DNA of 64,000 nt from Glutinoglossum americanum (taxonomy: Eukaryota > Ascomycota > Geoglossomycetes > Geoglossales > Geoglossaceae). This document shows, in pieces, positions 9,292-49,119 of the stretch (positions are counted from its first letter, which is position 1; the number at the start of each line of letters is the position of its first letter). The notes under the pieces were generated by a model that was given only the letters and a program-made list of their open reading frames with translations, was not told the DNA's origin and did not search any database. A program made the position numbers and the translations under genes. The stretch covers positions 186,001-250,000 of the forward strand of contig JAGHQL010000002.1 of assembly GCA_020080175.1 (NCBI GenBank). The letters run 5' to 3'.

Positions 9292-11320
<2,029 letters not shown>

Positions 11321-12755
11321 TGCCTCTTCAAGCAGGTTCTGCAGCTTTATTATACCCTTCTCCTTTCTCGCGACAAATATCGTATGTATTTTTTTTCTTT
11401 AATCTCGAGAATACCGGAATAGGCGTATTGGCGCGGAACATAGAGTGGTAGAGCTTAGGACAAGTGCAATTATGCACATGGGCGTGAGAAAAACACTTAT
11501 ACTCTATATATATATTTAAGGGGAAGCAAGGCTAGGTAATAGCTATCTCGAATGCCATAAAGAAAGTATTTAGGCATCCTACCTGCCATTACCTTGTTCT
11601 GTCGCGCCAATTCAGATCGAGTCGGAAGGAAAATTGGGGGGGGGGTTGTGTATGCTCGCTCCCCCTCTATTGAATAGACGTAGTTCAAGAGTAGCAAACT
11701 CCCTTTCTTTGGGCAGATGAGTGTAATATAGTAGTCCCGCCCGAGGTTAGGGTTGAAGGAATGGGGTACCGTTGGCTTTGGATTCGTGAGTACGAGCATG
11801 GGAAGAGGGGATAGGGGAAAAAAGGGGTCGAGAGGATTTCCATTCTCGCGAATATTTGATAACGCACGTTACTTCTATCGAAATACCCACATGGGAACAT
11901 TTTTTCTTCACCCTTCAACCCTCTCTTTCTCTTCTCTCTCTATTAGCTAATATTTTACCTAACTAATAAATTAAGAACCCCCATTTCCTTTTTTTTTAAA
12001 ACCGGGTGGAGAGGATGGACGGATGAAAAAAAAAAAAAAATCCCGATGATGGCCCTTGGCCGCACTACCGGGGCGATGATGGCCTACAACAACGACTGAC
12101 ACACGAGAGAGTAGGAAGGGTAGGAAGAGCGGGGAAAGGAAAAAAAAAGCCCTAGTAGTTTCTTTGTCGAAGAGAGTGGGGAAAAGTTTCACGCGCCCAA
12201 AGAGGTGACGAGCGAGCGAGGCAGCAAGAGCTTCGAACAACGTGTTGGCAAAAAAAAACATAGCGAAACGATCACGTCCTCAAGTGCTTTCTTCGAGAAT
12301 TAAACTTCTCACCCTTGCCGGTTGCCCCTTCCCCCATTCGCGCAAGCCTTCAGGAGGGGTCGGGGGCTAAACTAGTCGATGCATGACTACTTTATCAGAT
12401 AATTTATCCAGAGAAAGGAAAGGAGAAAAGATAGTCGGGGATCACGAAAGATATTGACAAAGTTTATGCCCTTCACTTTGGGGGAAAAAAAAATTTGTTC
12501 TTCACCTCCACTCCCCACCAGAGAGCAATGATGGGGTAAAATGGGGGAAGCAAGGGGTATCTGCAGCAATTATAGAACAGAAAATTTGTCCACATTATCG
12601 ACTCTACTTCTGCCAAACGAAATTCACTATCTTTCCTTCCCGGGGTGATCTCGGATCGATAGAAAGGCGTTCGTCAGCTACTAGGGTAATGTAAGGACAA
12701 GGGAAGTGTTTCACAAGAATCGAATTGCAACCGTAGGCGCGACAAAGTGAGCTTG
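11321..12755. other. Convergent intergenic region with homopolymer tracts
   Basis: ESA1 and the eIF4E-binding gene point toward each other, so both 3' UTRs lie here. The stretch has a TATATATATA-like run near 11505, a G run near 11640 and a run of about 15 A near 12030, with other short A runs. No coding frame is recognisable; the open frames on the minus strand are low complexity. Confidence 0.45.
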
Positions 12756-21721: not shown

Positions 21722-22665
21722 TTACCAGTTGTGCCACAGTGCATAATCTGTGCCCAAAGCGAATACGTCGATCCGGTTAGGGCCCCATGAGATGGGCAAT
21801 GGTGGTGACTCTAGAATACCACCGAGGGACTCCCAAGCCACCCAGCTTTTACCGTCCCACGCCCTATGCCACAAGGCGCTGTCGGTGCCAACTCCGAGGA
21901 CATCGAGTCGGTTAGAACCCCACGAGACGGCCATTGGTGGTGACTCCAGAATACCACCAAGGGACTCCCATCCCCCCCAGCTCCTACCATCCCACCATTT
22001 ATGCCACAAGGCGCTGTCAGTGCCAACCGTGAAGAGGTCGATCCGGTTAGGGCCCCATGAGACGGCTGCTGGCGGCGACTCCAGAATACCACCGAGGGAC
22101 TCCCATCCCCCCCAGCTTTTGCCGTCCCACCATCTGTGCCAGCAGGCGCTGTCAGTGCCAACCCCGAAGACGTCGATCCGGTTAGAGCCCCATGAGACGG
22201 CATTTGGTGGTGATCGTAGAATACCACCGAGGGACTCCCACCCCCCCCAGCTGCTGCCGTCCCACCACCGGTGCCAGAGCGCATGGTCTGTGCCTAGGGC
22301 GAAGACGTCAAGTCGGTTAGGACCCCAGGAGACCACCGTAGGTGTAGAGACAATAATGCCTCCGAGGGACTCCCACCCTCCCCATTTTTTACCATCCCAC
22401 CATTTGTGCCACAAGGCGCTGTCGGTGCCAATCGTGAAGAGGTCGATCCGGTTAGGGCCCCATGAGACGGCTGCTGGCGGCGACTCCAGAATACCACCGA
22501 GGGACTCCCATCCCCCCCAGCTTTTGCCGTCCCACCATCTGTGCCAGCAGGCGCTGTCAGTGCCAACCCCGAAGATGTCGAGTCGGTTAGGACCCCAAGC
22601 GACTCCTGTAGGCGGGGAGGTAAGAGTGCCGCCGAGCGACTCCCAATGGCCAAGGCTGGCCGGAT
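21722..22665 (-). repeat. Seven tandem ~135-bp repeats coding propeller blades
   Basis: The coding exon is made of seven roughly 135-bp units in direct order, with high nucleotide similarity between units. Blades 1 and 4 match almost exactly ([18 protein letters not shown]), blades 2 and 5 likewise ([12 protein letters not shown]), and blades 3 and 7 share FALGTD. That pattern suggests duplication of a block of about three blades, in addition to single-blade duplication. Confidence 0.85.
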
Positions 22666-22850
22666 CTAAGAGCGGATGAGAATTGCCAGATGGAGCAGCC
22701 GCCGGAGGGGGCCTTACCAACAGCGGTTTCCAAAAGCTGCTGCGATATGGCTAGATTGATCAACGGCTGGTCTTGCTGTGGGACAACCGCGGCTAAGGTA
22801 ATACTTGCGCACTGGATGAAACCGACCAACAGGGGAATCACGTTAACCAT
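21722..22850 (-). CDS. Secreted seven-bladed beta-propeller lectin-like protein (PLL/DUF346 type)
   Basis: Exons are 22850-22718 and 22665-21722 (52-bp intron, GTAAGG..TTAG), encoding 358 aa. Residues 1-20 ([20 protein letters not shown]) look like a signal peptide, followed by about 25 polar residues. The rest is seven tandem repeats of about 45 aa, each beginning WESLGG and containing VSWGPNR, D-V/L-F, GTD-A-WH and WWDG. This is the sequence pattern of the bacterial PLL/DUF346 seven-bladed propellers, several of which bind fucose or related sugars at sites between blades. The last repeat lacks the final WWDG-W strand, which in propellers is commonly supplied by the N-terminus to close the ring. 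The exact sugar cannot be read from the sequence. A role in surface or host/competitor glycan binding is inference. Confidence 0.8.
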
Positions 22851-30351: not shown

Positions 30352-33300
30352 ATGGGCCACCTTGCTACGTTAGCTACTTGCTCCTTGAACCAGTGGGCCC
30401 TCGATTTTCAGGGCAATGCGGAACGAATTTTAGAGAGCATTCGACAGGCCAAAGCAGCTGGGGGTAAGTTTGACGTCCCGCTTTCCTATCCTAAACTGTC
30501 TCCCGAGTTTTCCGGGAGCAGCTCGAGCCATTGGGAGGCAGGGGCAGGGTATCTCAAGAGTATTTGTGAGTTAAGCTTTTCAAAAAGACAGTACTAATGG
30601 AGGAAACGTCATTAGCCAGTTTGAGAATCGGTCCGGAGCTTGAAATTACCGGATATGGGTACGTTCAAGGCTTCTTCTGGTCTTGACCGGAATTTGAAGG
30701 CCAGTTTGGCTGCAAATACACCCTAGAGAGCCTTTAGACTCTTGGGGTATTTCCCTCTTGAAATTTTCAACTTTATATTGTCTCACGACGTGAGACAACG
30801 TCGGGTTGAGATTTTCAGGAACTAGGAGCGGTACACCAAACGAGCCTTCGATATATCTCCGGGCTCACCTTTTCAAGACTGGGCTCTGACCTTAATTATA
30901 GATGTCTAGATCATTTCCTCGAATCGGATACAGCGCTCCATGCCTGGGAGTCTCTTGTCGACATTCTAAACGATCCCGCTTCGATGGATATTCTCTTAGT
31001 ACCAGTCCCCTTTCTAGTTCTTTCATCATCATCTTATCCCCGAAGTACCCCTAAGAGCCCCAGAGGATAACTGTATTACCAAAGAACCTCCTAACCTGAG
31101 GCAGGATATTGGAATGCCAATTACTCATCGGTTCGTCAAATTTTCATATGCTAACACGCTACCCCCGAACCCGAGACAGTGTTTCGGTGGTGTACGCGGC
31201 CCTCTGGGGTATTGTTAAACCCACTAACTATGTCAATAGGAACGTTAGATACAATGCCCGCGTCATCAGTTTTAACAAGACTATCCTGGTATATATCTCC
31301 AGTTTTGTCAACACGATAACCCCGGAAACCCCTAAAGTGTTTCGGGGGTAAAAGCACCCCCGAGACGTACTGCCCGGGGTATTGTATTAAAGAATCCGCT
31401 AACTTTGTCAACAGCTCATTCGCCCCAAACTGAGCCTTGCCAACGATGGAAACTATAGAGAAATGCGCTATTTCTCACCATGGAAAGGAGAGCGTGTTGT
31501 CGAGGACTATTACCTACCACGAATCGCCCATAAGCTGACCGGTCAGAAGAAGGTCCGGATTGGGGATGCTCTCATCTCTACCCTGGACTCGTGTATGGGT
31601 ACGGAGACGTGTGAAGAACTGTTCACCCCTAATTCGCCCGGTATAGGAGCTGGACTTGACGGCTGTGAGATCTTCAGTAATTCTTCCGGCTCGCATCACG
31701 AGCTACGGAAGCTCAACACGAGGATCGATTTGATCAGACAAGAGACCCTCAAGAGTGGAGGTATCTATCTCTATGCAAATCAACAAGGGTGTGACGGTGA
31801 TCGTTTGTGAGTTTCTCCTTTCCTTTCGTATAAAATCCTAATTCACTCGATATTACAGATACTATGATGGCTCTGCCATGATAATCATCAATGGGAAAGT
31901 TGTTGCACAAGGTTTGTTGGTACATTTCTATTGCTTCTCCTTGGTTATGAGTACTAAGATCTTTTAGGCAGTCAATTCAGTTTGGCAGAAGTGGAAGTTG
32001 TTACCGCAACGGTGGACTTGGAGGAGGTCCGCAGCTACCGATCATCCAAGTCCCGTGCCATGCAAGCAACCCGGCAGCCGGCTTATGAAAGAATCGAAGT
32101 TGACATGAGTCTTTCTAAAGACTCAGTGGAAGTTGACCCATTGATCTCTCCTAGTCCCGAGCTTGAGATTAGACTTCATAAACCAGAGGAGGAGATTGCG
32201 TTCGGACCGGCATGCTGGATGTGGGACTACTTGAGACGCTCGCAACAGGCCGGGTTCTTTCTCCCATTGGTAAGATCAATCCTCCAATATATTTTCCTTT
32301 GGTTTGCGAGGTTAGTGGGAAGAGTAGCTGCTCCTGATCACAGCGTTTCGGTCGCTCAGAGCTTGAAATTCCCGGAACTCGCTAACCAAGCATTCTAGTC
32401 CGGAGGCATAGATTCATGCGCCACCGCCGTAATTGTCCACAGCATGACAAGATTGGTATACAAAGATGTCATCGAGGGTAAAAACTCTCAAGTTCTCAAG
32501 GACCTGTTGAGAATTGTGGGAGAGCCTTCGAACTCAACCTGGCGCCCAAGTTCCCCTGCAGATATCGCTTCGAGACTCTTTCACACAGCATACCTTGGAA
32601 TGGCTGAGAACAGTTCCCCCGCTACCCGAAGTCGTGCCAAGGATTTGGCGAAAGACCTTGGTGCTTACCATCTCGATCTCAATATTGATACCGTATGTTC
32701 ACTCCTATTTCCCCATACATGCTCTCACCCTTGAGCGCTCATTTTCCTCCTCATCTCTTATAGCATAGTACTGATTTTCTCAGGTCGTTAATGCAGTGAC
32801 TGCCCTCTTCTCGACTGTGACTAAATACACTCCACAATACAAAATGTATGGGGGATCATGGGCATCCAACCTCGCGCTTCAGAACATCCAAGCGAGATTG
32901 AGAATGGTTCTTTCGTAGGTTTCTAAAACCTGCCTCCAGGGCATCGTATTGACGAAGAACCCGCTAACTTTACGGAAGCTATCTTTTTGCTCAACTGCTA
33001 CCCACAGTCCGAGGCAGAAACGCAGAGAACGCAGAGACGCAACAACCGGGCAGTCTCCTCGTTCTGGGATCTGCAAATGTGGATGAATCTCTTCGTGGGG
33101 TAAGTGTCATTCGCCCAAGTTCCACCTGGCATGAAACCTATATCTTGAGTAGTTCACTCTCATGGTATCATCTCAGGCCGTATGAGATAAATAGCCCCTT
33201 CATATTTTGTGGAAACGCTAACTAAGATTTCAATATACAGTATCTGACCAAATACGACTGTTCAAGCGCAGACATAAATGTAAGCCCTCCGCTCCGCGGA

Positions 33301-34296
33301 CCTTTCTTTATCACCATATTCTCATGCGTAACTGTATTGGCGAAAAGTCCGCTAACCTGATGCCAGCCCATAGGTGGTGTGAGTCTGAAGTTCTTGGAGC
33401 AAAAACCCCCGAAACAGGATGTTTCAAAAGCATGTTACACTCAAGACATATGGTTTAAGAACAAAGCCATAGTATTTATCTTGAGAATGCATGACTCTTG
33501 GATCAGAACCTGCACTCACTACTCCCCAAACATTCCGGAACTAGTAAACTAACTTCGAGATTACCACCACAGATTTCCAAAAACGATCTTAAGAAGTTCA
33601 TCCTATGGTCATCGGCAAGCTTCTCCTTGCCTGTTCTCAAAGACTTCGTGAGTCTCCAGCAGAACTCCTATCCTGAAGGCTCTCAGAAGAGGGAACCCGG
33701 GGAGTTCCTGAGAAGGAGGCAAGACTGACTAACAATGTCATACAGATTGATGCACCTCCAACAGCTGAGCTGGAGCCCATCACGGATACCTACACGCAAT
33801 CAGATGAGGCTGACATGGGCATGTCTTGTAAGCTTTGTTTCCCCCAACACTCACCCATACACTCCTCACCCCGACCCACCCAGCCTCACTTATTACCTCG
33901 GAACCCCTCCTACTCAAACCCTCAGCTAACACTCTCCTGGACAACGAACTCTCAATATACGGCCGCCTCCGCAAAATCGAGAAACTTGGCCCCTACGGCA
34001 TGTGGTCCAAACTCCTCCACACTTGGGGCGACACCATCTCCCCACAGCAAACCTACGAGAAGGTCAAGTGGTTTTTCCGCTGCTACAGCATCAATCGACA
34101 TAAGATGACAACCCTCACTCCATCCTACCACGCAGAAGCCTACTCCCCCGACGACAACAGATTCGATCTCCGGCCATTTTTGTACCCAGGCTTCGAGCAC
34201 GCTTATAAGAAGATTGAGAATCGGATTGCGGCTATGGGGGTGATGGGAACAAAAGTTCTGGAGGGTGTTGGGGCGGAGGGGAAAAAGACTGTTTAG
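30352..34296 (+). CDS. QNS1: Glutamine-dependent NAD+ synthetase Qns1
   Basis: Qns1 makes NAD+ from deamido-NAD+, ATP and glutamine. Sixteen exons are inferred: 30352-30463, 30616-30658, 30902-30998, 31105-31130, 31240-31288, 31415-31806, 31859-31911, 31968-32269, 32399-32692, 32784-32914, 32979-33099, 33241-33279, 33367-33378, 33573-33647, 33746-33827 and 33926-34296. They sum to 732 aa (yeast 714). The N-terminal nitrilase-like glutaminase has E in [11 protein letters not shown] in [11 protein letters not shown] and C in GTETCEELF. The synthetase half has the ATP loop SGGIDS, then [13 protein letters not shown] and [13 protein letters not shown], and ends [10 protein letters not shown]...YKKIE. 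Exon 13 is only 12 nt (P-I-G-G). The start of exon 16 is uncertain: an upstream in-frame AG also works. Fifteen introns is far more than its neighbours carry, and several are mutually similar. Confidence 0.9.
30779..30797. repeat. Perfect 9-bp palindromic arms in QNS1 intron 2
   Basis: TGTCTCACG and CGTGAGACA flank a single A, inside the 243-bp second intron of QNS1. It could form a cruciform or RNA hairpin. A possible relic of an insertion, but no terminal repeats were found around it. Confidence 0.55.
30999..33366 (+). repeat. Family of mutually similar introns in QNS1 (introner-like)
   Basis: Introns 30999-31104, 31131-31239, 31289-31414, 32915-32978 and 33280-33366 share a 3' segment of the form GTATTG, then an A-rich run, then CCGCTAAC and a short tail to the acceptor. 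The clearest cases are ATTAAAGAATCCGCTAAC, GACGAAGAACCCGCTAAC and GGCGAAAAGTCCGCTAAC. Introns 4 and 5 also share CCCCGAA-type and AGTGTTTCGG blocks upstream of it, and both contain GGGGTATTG. Ordinary introns in the window (YPT6, ESA1, URB1) share only branch-site-level similarity. Confidence 0.6.
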
Positions 34297-37141
34297 ATAT
34301 TCATAGGGAGGGTAAGATGTGGCGGGATGGTGGATGTTGGGTGCTTTAAGGATCTGAATTTTTACCGTTACTACTGAGGGCAGAATACTCCACGCACGAA
34401 ATCGCTGATTTGGTGTAAGAATACGGATTATTTGCAATATGTGTTTACGACACACTTTCGAGAGGTACCCGACTATTTCCCTATTTTCCTAGGCGAAGTT
34501 GGGCAATTCTGTACCCTTAACTTTACTATTCTTCAGATCCCGGGGTTTTTGAGAGGTTTCCCTAAATCCTCTTGCCATTCCTTATCCGAGTAGTCGTTAT
34601 ATCATTTGGTCCCTCAGGCTACATTTTTTAACTAAACGCACCCTAGATCTCATCAAGGCATACCTTAATACTCAGAGGCCCTAAACTGCTCTAATTAGGA
34701 ACAGAATAAAGGTCTCCTACTATGGGTCAAATAGTTCCTCCAGGTTCCTAGTCCTAAATATTATTGATTCCCTTAAAAGTGCTTGTGAAAGGCTTGCTTT
34801 TATGCTAGGAGTGGGGTTTGCTGTCCTTATATTGATTTAAATAGCTAATCACGAAGTTTTCTCTGGCAGCTAGCCTGTGAGGTGCAGCTCAGGGTGCGGC
34901 TCCGATAGCCGGCACCACCTGCCACGATCGCCTCAGGTTGCTAGTTGGTGGTGCAATTGTGCAACGGTACGGGGATGACATCCCAACCTCAATGACAACA
35001 TGGTCGATTACCTTACATGGTGATGCTGGTACAATGTAAGGTCCGCAAGCTCCTCGCGGCTACGACGTACGGGTATGGCTGCTCGCAGAAGGCTCGTGGC
35101 TCAGTGCCCGCTTGCTGGTAGTGTGTAGGGTATCACTTAGACGATAGGCATGATATGGGAGATAATGAGGATGGATTCTAGCTCTGCCCGATGAGAGAAC
35201 TGATCGCTGGCCTCCTCCTGAGGCTCAGACTTCCTATCCATGATAGTTGAAACGAGGGAAGTTCGAGTTGGAGCTGCCCCTCATTAACGACGAAAATGGA
35301 CAATTTAGAGGAGATGAAATGGACCAGCTCACCCTTTTAAAAGCGGCGCCAGCTAGGTGAGGTGCGAGTGAGTGAATTACAGATTTCTGTTTTCTTCTAG
35401 AGCCAGGACCATATCCGAAGGATGCACCCTCAGATGTTCAGAAACGATAGACCTCCTACCCCTACCACTTTCCTTGTACAGAGCACTGAGGCTGACGCGA
35501 TGAATGCCCAGCCAGGCAGGCCAGAAGGAGTTGGGGAGAGCACCAGTCCCACTATCCCTGGCTTGGAAGAGTTCCTGAAGGAGCTAAAGGCCAAGCGGTC
35601 GAAGATTGAAATTAAGCATGTGGAGACGACATTACAGCTGTGGAAGTCGCCTGGCTGAAGTGAGTGCATTTCTGTAACTTGATGAATTACATTCAATGAT
35701 ATTCCATGTGTTTTCTTTATATCACAATTACATAGTCTCGGTAAGAAAGGGCAATTAGGGTGATGTGAGAGTTCCGGGTAGCATGGGTATTGTGGAAGCT
35801 TTGGTTCACCTGGTAGGTAGAAGGACGATTCTATTAAGCAGGTCGTGGGCGCGGTAGGTAAGCTACCCCTGCCAAGGAGCATGACTAATAACTAGCTAAT
35901 AAACCACCACTTCCACGGCATAGAAATCACCTCCACAGTATGCGGGTTTTATGCTATGGATCGCGGACGGTACCTGGGAATAGGGACATACATCAAATGG
36001 AACACGGATACTGGACTTTACGCTTAAGCGTCTTCCTATCACATCTGGCGGCACATCCCCCTGCCTAAAATTACTAGCTCCGGGGGGGGCATCCCACCAA
36101 AATTATAAACGCTAAAACATTAAATTATCCAGGGGTCACCCCACTCCGCCGTCTGCGGCTTGGCCCTAAGAACCGTTGGCCTGGGCCCTTACAGTTTTTG
36201 GCCTGGGCCCCTTTTGGTCTAAGCCCAAAAATCAAGGTCCAGCCCTCCGAGGAGTACACTGGTCAACTGCCCATAATTTTGGGCGCCTTCCTGGGACGCC
36301 CAGGCCACATTTTCCTACCTACGCTCTCCGAATTTCTGTAGCCAGCACAACACCACGTTTCGTGTGCCACACTTTCCCAAGCCCAGAACTGCGCAATAAG
36401 ATATATACCACAGGCAGTTGCCTTTGTTGCTGGCGGTTTGCGAGGCCATCGCCAAGGCCCGGCGAGTGTGCCTAGGCGAGTGTATGGCCCAGTTGAGTGT
36501 GTGTAGGGCCCAGGCGAGCTCATCACCGAGAGCCCGTCCACCCCTGAAAAGAAAAAGAACATTCTGACCACAATCTCAACCAAAACCTCCTTTCGCTTAG
36601 GTTCAGTCGGGGCTAAGCCAAGCCGACGTATCGGCCATTTTGGTTTCCTTCTGGCTGCTCTCGAGCAGCAATATTTTCAAAGTGGTCATCGAATGGTGAA
36701 CCTTTCGTCATGAGCTGCAATTCGACTGCCACGAGCTTTCCTTAGTTAGAATCCCTAGCCCCAGCGGTGAGCCAGCGTATAAAGGCCTTGCCTTTAGCAC
36801 TGGTTTTCCTCGAATGGTGGTATGGGGCTCAGAATAAGCCAATCATGGTATGGTGGTAAGCCACCAGGTTCAACACCTGCTTAAGGCGCCCAATGTTATC
36901 AATAGCACAGCCTCCCGATGAATCGCCGTCACGCCATTTTGAGGCTAGACTCGGCTGATAGAGCCCCTGAATTCACGATGTTACTTGTACTATCGCGGAA
37001 CAACGATATATACATCAACCGCGTGTTCCATTGAAAGGATTTTTCATTGTGAACGACTCAACTACCCATCATTCTTGATTAGTTCAAAGTTTTCAAGGTT
37101 AGTCGCATATTATTGAACAACCAACCTCTTCGCTGTCCCCT
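34297..37141. other. Accessory intergenic stretch
   Basis: No gene is confidently recognised in 2.8 kb. A 78-codon frame at 35422-35658 (MHPQMFRNDRPPTP...) is preceded by a good acceptor (TTCTTCTAG) and could be the last exon of a small unknown gene. An ACCTTACAT / ATGTAAGGT inverted repeat lies at about 35012-35042. The first copy of a 64-bp direct repeat sits at 35804-35867. A tRNA B-box-like GGTTCAACACC at about 36868 is not accompanied by a foldable tRNA. Confidence 0.4.
35804..35867 (+). repeat. 64-bp direct repeat, copy 1
   Basis: This 64-bp sequence contains TGGTAGGTAGAAGGAC, ATTAAGCAGGTCGTGGG and GCGGTAGGTAAGCTACC. It recurs at 40114-40177 in the same orientation and the same length with 6 mismatches (58/64 identical). 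The two copies bracket the 37.1-39.7 kb HET gene and the relic after it. Confidence 0.8.
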
Positions 37142-39744: not shown

Positions 39745-40113
39745 TTGGCGGAGCCAAGGCCATCTCTTTCGCCGTCTCAATTTTCTGAGGGAGCATTCAA
39801 TGATTTCAGAAAGAAAGCAAACCGTGCTGTAAATAAGGCTGACGTGATGGCAAAGGCATTTTTGATTCCGGAAGGCAACAGTGATGTCCCGTCTGGCATC
39901 AAGAGGACGTTCACCAACCTGGCCGCTCTGACGGATGGCGCCATCGTTGACGTCCAGCCGGATTCCTACTATGGCGCTCGCCCCGACCAGCTCGACCCGC
40001 GTGTCCAGGAAGATTTGAATTCATACATCATCCCTTCCGCGAATGATAGGGTCCCAATATTACCCAACAATTTCACTGAAGGGAAGGGTCCTGGTGGTAC
40101 TGTGATGCTATAA
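39745..40113 (+). pseudogene. Truncated copy of a conserved fungal protein
   Basis: A 122-codon frame without a proper ATG at its head runs from just after the HET gene stop to a TAA at 40113. It contains FSEGAFNDFRKKANRAVNK, ADVMAKAF, PSGIKRTFTNLAALTDGAI and DLNSYIIPSAND. I recall this block as the N-terminal part of a longer, unnamed protein family in ascomycetes; here it ends at GPGGTVML. The 64-bp direct repeat starts at the very next base, so the truncation and the repeat coincide. No function can be assigned and the fragment is unlikely to be expressed as a full protein. Confidence 0.45.
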
Positions 40114-40177
40114 GTTCGTCTGGTAGGTAGAAGGACAATTGGATTAAGCAGGTCGTGGGTGCGGTAGGTAAGCTACC
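40114..40177 (+). repeat. 64-bp direct repeat, copy 2
   Basis: Second copy of the repeat at 35804-35867, same orientation, 58 of 64 positions identical. It abuts the truncated reading frame that ends at 40113. Confidence 0.8.
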
Positions 40178-44862: not shown

Positions 44863-47800
44863 ATGTCTTGGCGCAAACTGCCTAGCCGGTTGGAAGGCAT
44901 CTTTCACCTAGAAAGATATAAAAGGACTACAACGGTAAGTTGCGGACCTGTGTCCTTCGTTGCGATGTGGATGGTTGTTAATTATAACAAAGCCTTCTGG
45001 GAAAGATGACAAGACCGACTGCACGTCTTCCCCCGCTGCCGCTCCCGAGGACCTAGAACCGGCCCACCTCTGGAAGAAAGCGCTCGATAAACTCCGCCAA
45101 GGTGACGAGACCAGAAAGCTTGTGGACGCTTATGAGCGTAATCTCGTACGGCAGGCGCTGCAAGGTACGTCGAGGCTTCTTGCTACGAATGCGGGATCTA
45201 CTCTCCAGTTTTCTCCTAGTCTTGTCAAGCTGATGCTGAAGAAGATGCTTCTGCGGATGCCTCCCACAAGGACACAACGCGCAGCGGAAAATTGCCCATC
45301 AACGATCCTGATCCCTACCGGCAACTCCCAGCCATCGTCGATGGAAAACTCCAAGAATTCCAGGCTGATCGGCTGAAAGAGGAAGTCGCCATCAGGGAGC
45401 CAATCCTCAAGATTGTTGATTTCGTTCTTTCCGCTAAAGACGTCATTGGATCTGCAGTAACTGCGGACCCGCATGCCGCCCTGGCGTGGGCTGGGATTCT
45501 TTTATTTCTTTCTGTAAGTATTTTCAACCACAATCTCCTGTTCTTCTGGCTGCTGATTTTTCCCCTGATAGGTGTTGCTGAATCCAATCACGCAAGCAAA
45601 GGATGCTGTAGAGGGTATCGAATACATTTCAGATCTCCTTGTCCGGTGCGCAGTTACCGAGGACACTTACCTCAAAAAGGAAGGATCAACACACACTCAA
45701 AGGTACTTGGTCAACCTTTTCACCCATGAAACTCCTTAAGCTTTCAAACCTCCAAAGGGCACTCATCAGATTACGAAAAAGATTTAATATGGATATCTGA
45801 TTACTTTCAATTATTGCTCGATGCTAATGATAGCCTCTAGCTCTCCCGAATTGCAACACCTTCAAACGCTGAAGCGGGCCTTTGTGACCAAGACTGTTGA
45901 CCTTTATGCCCAAATATTGGAATATCAGATCCGGCTCGCTAAGCACATCTCCCGTTCAGGGTTCTGTCGGTTTTTCGCGGACCTTGTCGTTACAGATGAC
46001 TGGAAGGCAATGCTAATAAATGTGAAGGATATTGAGGGATGCATCAGGGAGCATCTAAGCACCCATGATAGGCATACTCTAGACGAGATTCGCGATATAG
46101 TTTCTAACCTCCACGGACATAATGAGGAGGTGCTGAATATAGTAAGGGTAAGTAAAGTTCTCATTTTGATCTATTTCCACAAGCTACTAATTATTCTCCT
46201 TAGAATATCGAAAAAAGGGAACCTGAACACAACCACCTACTAAAGGAGTTGCCTTACGCGGAAGGTGCAGCTTTTGACTCGAAAAACAATAAACATGACC
46301 AATGCCTTGAGGGCACCCGGACTCGTCTCCTCGAGGAGATTGAGGATTGGAGCAAGGACGCCAATGCCAAGAATATCTTTTGGCTAAAAGGTGTAGCTGG
46401 TACAGGAAAATCTACTATCGCTCGTACTGTTGCCTACAAGTTTGCAAAGCAGAACAGCCTTGGAGCAAGCTTCTTTTTCTTGAGGGGTAAAGAGGATCGT
46501 GGCAATGCCAGACTGTTCGTCACTACGCTAGCGCGGCAACTCAGCGAGCAGCAACCTAATCTGAGGCAATACATTCGCCAAGCAATAGTCGATAGATCCA
46601 CGATTGCCGATAAAGATCTTAACGAACAATGGGACCACCTTATCATTGGGCCACTCTCTCAGATGAAGGGCAGTGTACTCTCAATCTTGATATTTGTGAT
46701 TGATGCCCTCGATGAATGTGGGGACAGGACAGATATCCGAGACATTCTTCACCTTGTCACCCAAGTAGGGAAGGTGAAGGCCATACAAGTACGAGTTTTT
46801 GTAACCAGCAGACCCGATGCCCCTATCAACAATGTCTTTCGTAATATGGATGAAACCGTCCATTATGATCTGGCACTCCATAAGGTCCCTCAGCAGGAAA
46901 TCAGGAGGGATATATACTTTTTCTTGAAGCATAGGATGGCTAAAGTTAAGAACGACAAGGGTATCAAAGAAGAATGGCCGGCCGAGGAAGATATTAATAT
47001 TCTCGTTCAAAGGGCTGACCGTCTCTTCATCTATGCGGCAACTGTGTGCCGATTTATTGAGAATTCCCGGTTTCCAAAACCTCTTCTCTCAAAAATACTC
47101 CAGATAAAGTCGACTAGCCAATCATCCACCACTGAACTGGATGCGGTATATTTGCAGATAGTAGAGCCTTCTGTTATTGACAGTTCCGTCCCGGACGAGA
47201 GAGATGAATTAATGAGTCTATTCAGAGAGGTTGTTGGATCAGTTGTCATTCTGTTTGACCCTCTTTCTACTTTAGACTTGTCCAGACTGCTTGATATATC
47301 ATCGGAAAAAGTTAGCGGGACACTTGAGCCACTGCACTCTGTTCTGGATATCTCAGAGGATGAAGAATCTTCTATCCAGCCATTCCACCTTTCTTTCCGC
47401 GATTTCCTCTTTGATAACAAAAGGTGCTCTAACACTCAATTTTGGATTGCCGAAGATAAAGCACATAGCAATCTTGTTAGCAGATGTATTAAGATCATGT
47501 CTGGTGCTTTAAAGAAAGACATCTGCATGTTGGGGGAACTGGATTGTCTTGTCAGCGGCATTGACCAAAATCTTATTAAAACAAGTCTTCCTGTACATAT
47601 CCAGTACGCATGTCGCTATTGGATCCGTCATCTCCAGAGGACTGAAATCCATCTCCATTACAAAGAGGTCCTGGGTTTTCTCAAGGATCGCTTCCTTCAC
47701 TGGCTTGAGGCCCTCAGTCTTATGCGGCGGATACCTGAGGGAGTACTCATGATACAAACACTCAAATCCATGCTTACTGTAAGTATCTCTAAGCCGCTAT

Positions 47801-49119
47801 GAGGACCAAGATGCTGACATAACTATGAAGTCTAACCAATACCCAGAATTATACGGGCTGGTGAATGATGCAAGGCTGTTTCTTCTCAGCTTTAAGTCTG
47901 TCATTAAAGAAGCACCTCTTCAAGCATACCATTCTGCCATCGTTTTCAGCCCAGCAAGTAGTATCATTCGCAACCGATTCTTGCAGTCCTATGATTCAGC
48001 TGATTCAGTATCCACCCGGATCAAAATTTTGCCTAAAGTTGAAGACTGGAACCCGTCTGTGCAAGCATGCAAGCAGGCGCTGGAAGGCCATACCGACTCG
48101 GTCTGGACGGTAGCCTTTTCGAGCGACGGTCTGCTTGCGTCCGGATCTCACGATAGGACTGTGCGGGTGTGGGATCCCATGACAGGCGAATGCAAGCAGA
48201 CGCTGGAAGGCCATACCGACTCGGTCTGGACGGTAGCCTTTTCGAACGACGGTCTGCTTGCGTCCGGATCTCACGATAGGACTGTGCGGGTGTGGGATCC
48301 CATGACAGGCGAATGCAAGCAGACGCTGGAAGGCCATACCGACTCGGTCTGGACGGTAGCCTTTTCGAACGACGGTCTGCTTGCGTCCGGATCTCACGAT
48401 AGGACTGTGCGGGTGTGGGATCCCATGACAGGCGAATGCAAGCAGACGCTGGAAGGCCATACCGACTNNNNNNNNNNGTGTGGGATCCCATGACAGGCGA
48501 ATGCAAGCAGACGCTGGAAGGCCATACCGACTGGATCTGGACGGTAGCCTTTTCGAGCGACGGTCTGCTTGCGTCCGGATCTGACGATAGGACTGTGCGG
48601 GTGTGGGATCCCATGACAGGCGAATGCAAGCAGACGCTGGAAGGCCATACCGACTGGATCTGGACGGTAGCCTTTTCGAGCGACGGTCTGCTTGCGTCCG
48701 GATCTGACGATAGGACTGTGCGGGTGTGGGATCCCATGACAGGCGAATGCAAGCAGACGCTGGAAGGCCATACCGACTGGATCTGGACGGTAGCCTTTTC
48801 GAGCGACGGTCTGCTTGCGTCCGGATCTGACGATAGGACTGTGCGGGTGTGGGATCCCATGACAGGCGAATGCAAGCAGATACTGAATGGAAAGCTTCCC
48901 CCAGAGTTTTCATCTTTACCCAGCCTTCAACCTCCACTGTATTCTCTGAATGGAGAACAGAGGTGGGTAACCCGAAACAATCGTCATCTTCTTCTCCTCC
49001 CTGATGATCATTATCCTATTTGCTTTGCTGTCAAGGGCAACACTCTGGCGATAGCACGTCACTCTGGCCAACTTACTTTTCTTGAATTTAGCTCAGATAT
49101 TGATTCTCTGAAGATCTGA
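44863..49119 (+). CDS. NOD-like receptor: NACHT_N - NACHT - WD40 repeats
   Basis: Exons are 44863-44934, 44993-45164, 45230-45513, 45572-45702, 45841-46147, 46204-47778 and 47831-49119. The last contains a 10-N scaffold gap at 48468-48477, so the reading frame is not continuous there in this assembly. The N-terminal NACHT_N region (about residues 30-330) has ADPHAALAWAGILLFL, LLNPIT and YISDLLVRCAVTEDTYL. NACHT follows with P-loop GVAGTGKST, FFFLRGKEDRGNA (Walker A neighbourhood), and FVIDALDECG as Walker B. LHKVPQQEIRRDIYFFL and FHLSFRDFL complete the family set. The C-terminus is an array of 41-aa WD40 units (GHTDSVWTVAF..RTVRVWD). Such receptors govern fungal nonself recognition, the propeller sensing ligands and NACHT oligomerising. 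The effector domain here is not a HET or patatin domain. Confidence 0.85.
48086..48888 (+). repeat. Near-identical 123-bp WD40-coding tandem repeats
   Basis: Units start at 48086, 48209, 48332 and 48455 (cut by the gap), then 48520, 48643 and 48766 after it; each is 123 bp (41 codons). Within each block units are almost identical. Before the gap they read HTDSVWTV and SGSHDRT; after it HTDWIWTV and SGSDDRT. Such homogenised arrays are known from the fungal HNWD (het-d/e/r) receptors, where repeat number and a few surface residues set specificity. Confidence 0.9.
48468..48477. other. Scaffold gap of 10 N within the WD40 array
   Basis: Ten N bases interrupt the tandem array. The downstream copies are out of phase with the upstream ones across the fixed gap length, which shows the gap size is a placeholder. 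An unknown number of units is probably missing. Confidence 0.95.

Follow-up and report, generated by a model that had tools for sequence, protein, structure and literature searches.

Within a 64,000-nt stretch of the genome of the ascomycete Glutinoglossum americanum (contig JAGHQL010000002.1, positions 186,001 to 250,000; hereafter the window), the gene QNS1, encoding glutamine-dependent NAD+ synthetase, raises the question of why introns of a single gene should resemble one another. An earlier note on this DNA, made from the sequence alone, had taken the QNS1 introns for introner-like elements (ILEs), that is, introns multiplying in a genome. We found that five of the 15 introns (introns 3, 4, 5, 10 and 12, denoted I3, I4, I5, I10 and I12) are more alike than chance allows and that, at the available search sensitivity, the family is confined to QNS1. 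We put it close to an even chance that the five descend from one intron by copying inside QNS1, via reverse splicing and recombination with cDNA. The gene and the five introns, which lie between the start of intron 3 and the end of intron 12 (30999–33366), are as follows.

30352–34296, plus strand: QNS1, glutamine-dependent NAD+ synthetase, with 16 exons and 15 introns, from domain matches and alignment to the solved structure 6ofb
30999–31104, plus strand: intron 3 (I3), 106 nt, family member, at a position identical to that of an intron in the decayed C103 copy of QNS1
31131–31239, plus strand: intron 4 (I4), 109 nt, family member via its likeness to I5, at a position empty in the decayed C103 and C179 copies
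31289–31414, plus strand: intron 5 (I5), 126 nt, family member with a stable hairpin (z = −2.67), at a position empty in the C103 and C179 copies
32915–32978, plus strand: intron 10 (I10), 64 nt, short family member, 1 nt off an intron of the C179 copy
33280–33366, plus strand: intron 12 (I12), 87 nt, family member by its 3′ block only, 3 nt off an intron of the C179 copy

To judge the likeness against chance, we held donor, branch site and acceptor fixed and dinucleotide-shuffled the remainder of each intron (105 intron pairs, 400 rounds). The best real pair scored 26 against a shuffle maximum of 20, and 0 of 400 rounds reached 26, so the intron-against-intron alignment that the earlier note had proposed as a check came out in favour of real likeness. 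The five top pairs of the 105 (I4–I5, I5–I10, I10–I12, I3–I12 and I3–I10) all fall within the five-intron group, and their summed score was 91.5 compared with at most 71.5 after shuffling. Each member also outscored all 231 other CTAAC-plus-acceptor sites in 260 kb of the contig. I8, I11, I13 and I14 were considered as further members and rejected, with 38, 112, 158 and 18 of the 231 background sites, respectively, scoring equally high.

In a self-comparison of the DNA, matches of at least 26 bits in the window comprised I4–I5, I5–I10 and I3–I12, together with a palindrome in I2, a match of I8 to exon 2 and one of I9 to a stretch at 11908. When 260 kb was compared with itself, with three long-repeat blocks masked, the I5–I10 pair found in the 64-kb comparison was missed; 4 of the 22 same-strand pairs listed at less than 4 kb apart fell in QNS1, which makes up 1.5% of that sequence. 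Three of these are family pairs (I4–I5, I3–I12 and I10–I12) and the fourth joins exon 2 and I8, while a single tandem repeat (C112:137,605–138,162) accounts for 4 of the remaining 18. A home-made intron caller, meant for a survey, proved too weak to use, with almost no codon bias and 8 of 13 gene-region calls matching introns of the gene model.

The most widely shared part of the family lies at the 3′ end of the introns, and two members have a further block upstream.

31068–31104, plus strand: 3′ block of I3 (GTATTA..CCTAAC..CAG), shared block
31209–31239, plus strand: 3′ block of I4, shortened, visible against I5 and weak against the profile
31379–31414, plus strand: 3′ block of I5, shared block
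32946–32978, plus strand: 3′ block of I10, shared block
33334–33366, plus strand: 3′ block of I12, shared block
31161–31202, plus strand: upstream hairpin block of I4 (CCCCCGAA..GTGTTTCGG), repeat family D2
31319–31360, plus strand: upstream hairpin block of I5 (CCCCGGAA..GTGTTTCGG), repeat family D2

I5, I10 and I12 contain exact instances of the pattern GTATTG, 4–12 nt, CCGCTAAC, which turned up in none of 100 shuffles of the window, and I3 carries a variant form of it. The idea that at least five introns end with the same kind of sequence holds exactly for three and in variant form for a fourth, but is weak for I4 on the block alone. A profile of I3, I5, I10 and I12 scores its four source introns at 23.7–28.9 bits, by construction; built without I4, it gives I4 6.8 bits (E = 0.87), under a chance site at 9505–9479 with 8.5 bits. 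We count I4 in the group because of its match to I5 (105 columns, 35.4 bits). The upstream blocks that had been reported for two introns were confirmed in I4 and I5, which have GTGTTTCGG and CCCC-GAA in common (42 nt, 71% identity).

A shared cis-element, a branch-site block selected for controlling QNS1 splicing, would be expected to look like this common part, which sits next to the acceptor at the branch site and, at the available sensitivity, occurs in one gene only. However, the likeness of I4 and I5 spans most of the intron, beyond the block, and the stem before the branch site is not distinctive: the five members have 3–4 pairs there, and we rejected a conserved stem ending at the branch site because 187 of 241 contig CTAAC sites (those of QNS1 included) have at least 3 pairs. 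A search of the 64-kb window against Rfam at the gathering threshold gave no matches, as did a tRNA scan. We consider a selected element of this kind improbable.

How far the likeness extends differs between pairs. The I4–I5 alignment starts at nt 23 of I4 and nt 22 of I5 and reaches the acceptor after about 105 columns. Near the 3′ end, identical bases make up 31 of the 37 aligned, and elsewhere 37 of 50; identity spread in this way beyond the 3′ end fits a decaying whole copy rather than one short conserved element. I3 and I10 align from nt 53 and nt 9, respectively, through both acceptors (39/51 identical), and I3 and I5 align in their 5′ halves (29/38 identical, starting at nt 15 and 10; p = 0.013, uncorrected). 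I4 and I5 look like whole-intron copies, and I3 and I10 are probably whole-intron copies with deletions. Pairwise identity among the copies is about 65–86%, depending on the pair and on how gaps are counted. In the definition of introners given in a passage of PMC9860276, similarity begins no more than 10 intronic bases from each splice site in at least four introns whose host proteins are unlike. On the acceptor side I4/I5 and I3/I10 agree with this definition, which the family as a whole does not fit: on the donor side the similarity starts at nt 22–23 (I4/I5), 15 and 10 (I3/I5) or 53 and 9 (I3/I10), and a single gene hosts all five introns.

Had the same core occurred in other genes, it would, according to the earlier note, have marked a new family. 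We searched the assembly (25,765,983 bases in 317 contigs) with several patterns, the counts being lower bounds, as very common words may be skipped. The exact core gave four matches, three in QNS1 and one on C14 (reversed-pattern control, four). With up to three mismatches, the core gave four matches, two in QNS1 and the others on C250 and C285 (control, none); a degenerate core gave four, three in QNS1 and the other on C107 (control, one); the I4/I5 end block gave two, in QNS1 only (control, one); and the hairpin block gave two, again in QNS1 only (control, none). DNA searches of the genome with whole I5 and with the I3–I5 region returned nothing beyond themselves. Pattern searches thus recovered QNS1 and four strays, which does not support a genome-wide introner family. 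The strays on C250 and C285 were rejected as copies, since they have no CTAAC and lie within 438- and 690-codon open frames, though they exceed a control of zero; that on C107 was rejected as well, as it sits in an open frame of 614 codons. A version of the core that allowed a single, wrong spacing missed every QNS1 intron and hit one chance-level site elsewhere. A large family of similar age elsewhere in the genome is unlikely, and a few strongly decayed copies may exist.

For comparing intron positions, the genome offers three decayed QNS1-like copies, 27–69% identical to QNS1 by aligned segment: one with stops and frameshifts (C179:52662–55286), one consisting of two end pieces (C284:75881–76498) and one consisting of the N-terminal part (C103:18934–19614). 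We take the C179 and C103 copies to be of the usual Pezizomycotina type. An intron of the C103 copy (C103:19135–19259) occupies exactly the position of I3, and coding is continuous in that copy over the positions of I1, I2, I4 and I5. In the C179 copy, one intron lies 1 nt off I10 and another 3 nt off I12, and there are private introns as well (for example, one after codon 176); its coding is continuous over I1, I3–I9, I11 and I14, and also over I13, with a gap of two codons, while I2 and I15 are not judgeable. The C284 copy is without I1, I14 (judged on one upstream residue) and I15. The positions of I4 and I5 are continuous coding in both copies that cover them, and parsimony based on these decayed paralogues would make I4 and I5 intron gains. 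The earlier note held that recent gain would be refuted if all 15 positions were shared with distant fungi; as judged on the decayed copies, three of the five members have shared or nearly shared positions (I3 exactly, I10 at 1 nt, I12 at 3 nt), and I4 and I5 do not.

I3, I10 and I12, the only three QNS1 introns to have counterparts in the decayed copies, all belong to the family, an outcome with a probability of 10/455 = 0.02 if they were drawn at random from the 15. The introns at matching places in the C103 and C179 copies are unlike I3, I10 and I12 in sequence (p = 0.96, 0.52 and 0.20, respectively). We also considered a block derived from introns of the decayed copies. Among 18 comparisons, two of them repeats, p was 0.004 for I4 (compared with exon plus the C179 intron near codon 553) and 0.046 for I12 (compared with the C103 intron), which was too weak to retain the idea.

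With three of five members at old or near-old positions, and with I12 sharing the 3′ part alone, existing QNS1 introns may have been overwritten with parts of one intron by gene conversion or DNA repair. Yet neither comparable copy has an intron at the I4 or I5 position, which requires insertion rather than overwriting, and among the repeats listed for QNS1 there is no shared exon tract beside the members. We give overwriting a low probability.

Copying within QNS1 would most likely have run as follows. The source would probably be an old intron, for example I3, which has a counterpart at the same position in the decayed C103 paralogue. Once spliced out and still bound by the spliceosome near its transcript, this intron would reverse-splice into the same RNA, sometimes at or beside an existing junction (I10, I12) and sometimes into continuous exon (I4, I5). 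Reverse transcription followed by recombination with the home gene would fix the copy, and copies would then decay by substitutions and deletions, I10 and I3 having lost middle parts. Such a route, which we infer, predicts seamless, sense-strand, whole-intron copies in the home gene; within QNS1, family matches are always on the sense strand. The fullest form of this reading is a gene-private family in which one intron gave rise to five copies by repeated reverse splicing into its own transcript, with older introns at or beside the positions replaced; this we hold tentatively, as somewhat less probable than its being wrong.

DNA-transposon introners are marked by target-site duplications, which were not seen here: exon and intron ends match exactly over 0–1 nt in the family, and across all 15 introns no such match exceeds 2 nt. 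In folding, I5 had z = −2.67 and the other four members −0.94 to +0.22; for inverted symmetry, p was 0.047 for I5 and 0.18–0.63 for the others. Terminal inverted repeats were rejected as a hallmark of the family, with I5 alone borderline and the non-member I2 strongly palindromic. The near-palindrome in I2 (30756–30820) has two 32-nt arms that are 75% complementary; none of 300 shuffles equalled the palindrome of I2, and as a DNA query against the genome I2 matched itself only.

These features bear on whether the five introns are old fungal ILEs, remnants of a family once genome-wide of which only the QNS1 copies are still recognizable. ILEs are described in passages of PMC4457414 as introns that multiply seamlessly and decay quickly, and those lying 1, 8 and 3 nt from regular introns are read there as parallel gains; the offsets of I10 (1 nt) and I12 (3 nt) fit parallel gain of this type as well, and the stable hairpin of I5 would also suit an ILE. 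The five introns do show mutual similarity beyond chance, as ILEs do (splicing being inferred), and to this extent the earlier identification stands. A genome-wide family is not supported: fungal ILEs occupy many unrelated genes, whereas we found, at three mismatches, QNS1 and the four strays. The searches found no other clear copy in 25.8 Mb, where a large family of like age should show some (simulated detection, 35–81%). I3, I4, I10 and I12 have little or no stable folding or inverted symmetry, and an ILE origin leaves unexplained why one gene retained five copies. We judge it unlikely, if the strongest of the alternatives. Nor is active gain, which had been suggested, supported by copies at about 65–86%: likely active fungal ILEs are 98–99% identical, and families past multiplying are less alike (PMC4457414). 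Compared with the Dothideomycetes ILEs of the same paper, among which genes with two copies are known, the QNS1 introns are likewise intron copies, some 1–3 nt off regular positions, but they occur in one gene only and are old. The QNS1 family is a small, old set of sibling introns, confined to one gene within the reach of our searches, and a variant of known intron transposition.

Intron duplication within a gene has reportedly been described in older papers for Drosophila Xdh and for Caenorhabditis, and a closer parallel comes from an animal that we take to be Oikopleura. There, near-identical intron pairs within single genes have been ascribed to reverse splicing (PMC3879977, in the part describing these pairs). 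Similar introns are restricted to one gene in both cases, but that part reports four near-identical pairs among about 75,000 introns, whereas QNS1 has five diverged copies in one fungal gene. The sister stwintrons and cropped sister introns of Hypoxylaceae resemble the QNS1 family in their seamless, low-copy proliferation in filamentous ascomycetes with no target-site duplication; they differ, in the account excerpted from PMC8469720, in having terminal inverted repeats of 45–55 nt and in occupying many genes, symmetry in QNS1 being weak except perhaps in I5. In its passages on intron transposition, a review (PMC3443670) names spread into an intron's own mRNA by reverse splicing as one option and suggests that reverse splicing may prefer already spliced positions, which would fit I3, I10 and I12, the three of five copies at or near old positions. 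Those passages do not describe a one-gene intron family such as that of QNS1, and they state that reverse splicing lacks in vivo demonstration. Our literature search found no paper on such a family in QNS1 or on a five-copy family in one fungal gene.

Several points weigh against copying within QNS1. Whole-length likeness is firm for I4/I5 only, which slightly lowers our confidence. The likeness of I3 to I5, taken on its own, has only the p value given above, before correction, and I12 shares with I3 the final part alone (26/35 identical; the last ~38 nt). Splice sites were predicted from the conserved protein, and intron positions were compared with decayed copies within this genome. The old or near-old positions of I3, I10 and I12 call for replacement or parallel gain besides insertion. 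The genome searches tolerate only three mismatches and in a leave-one-out trial recover one of three members; I4 and I5 escape the core pattern through indels; and simulated detection, without indels, falls from 81% at 14% divergence from a guessed ancestor to 35% at 26%. The C14 stray lies outside any long open frame. Finally, in Zymoseptoria, non-ILE duplication, including tandem duplication within a gene, accounts for <1% of single intron gains (PMC4457414), which speaks against within-gene copying being common.

The gene itself is intact. All 15 introns of the model are GT–AG, the coding frame is clean and unbroken at every junction, and CN_hydrolase and NAD_synthase domains (Pfam) cover the full length of the protein, placing it with QNS1/NADSYN1. 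It aligns with 6ofb, presumably human NADSYN1, over residues 1–737 (854 bits), ungapped at the junctions of introns 3, 4, 5, 10 and 12. The 15 introns and the conservation claimed at the outset hold, and the length is a choice between two: the last intron has two candidate acceptors, giving 746 or 732 aa, and we favour the 732-aa form because the 6ofb alignment has a gap at that acceptor region. The exons include a 12-nt micro-exon (PIGG; 33367–33378) between introns 12 and 13, and exons 4 (26 nt) and 5 (49 nt) are very short as well. A stretch of I8 (32348–32376) resembles part of exon 2 (30628–30653; 29 columns, 83%, E = 0.05 in 64 kb), which may be chance or an exon-to-intron copy.

The neighbouring genes in the window, including HET, NACHT, MYST acetyltransferase and Npa1 genes, have long uninterrupted frames; these genes and frames suggest a filamentous ascomycete whose genes carry few introns. 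The 15 introns of QNS1 in such surroundings, and the existence of its three decayed copies, could point to a foreign or ancient gene that arrived with its introns from an introner-bearing donor. The GC content at third codon positions of QNS1 (0.535), however, lies inside the range of nine other window frames (0.465–0.804), and we regard a foreign origin as very improbable. Elsewhere in the window, a gene with DUF346 repeats (21725–22720, minus strand) contains direct repeats 405 bp apart with 85% identity; a NACHT/NPHP3 gene (46249–49119) is followed by an array of near-identical repeats, identified by eye as WD40-like, that includes a short stretch of unknown residues; and the two copies of a direct repeat (35786–35867 and 40096–40177; 83 columns, 85% identity) lie 4.3 kb apart.

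No route of intron gain has been proposed more often than reverse splicing. If introns return mainly to the transcript they came from, a newly gained intron should look like others of its gene, a pattern that QNS1 shows with five copies. A large introner screen discards intron pairs whose encoded proteins are alike (PMC9860276, in its description of the screen). Removing similar-protein pairs would presumably drop within-gene pairs too, so that screens of this design would miss gene-private families and within-gene intron copying is perhaps under-reported. A search for sibling introns within genes would be a cheap and direct test of reverse splicing into an intron's own transcript.

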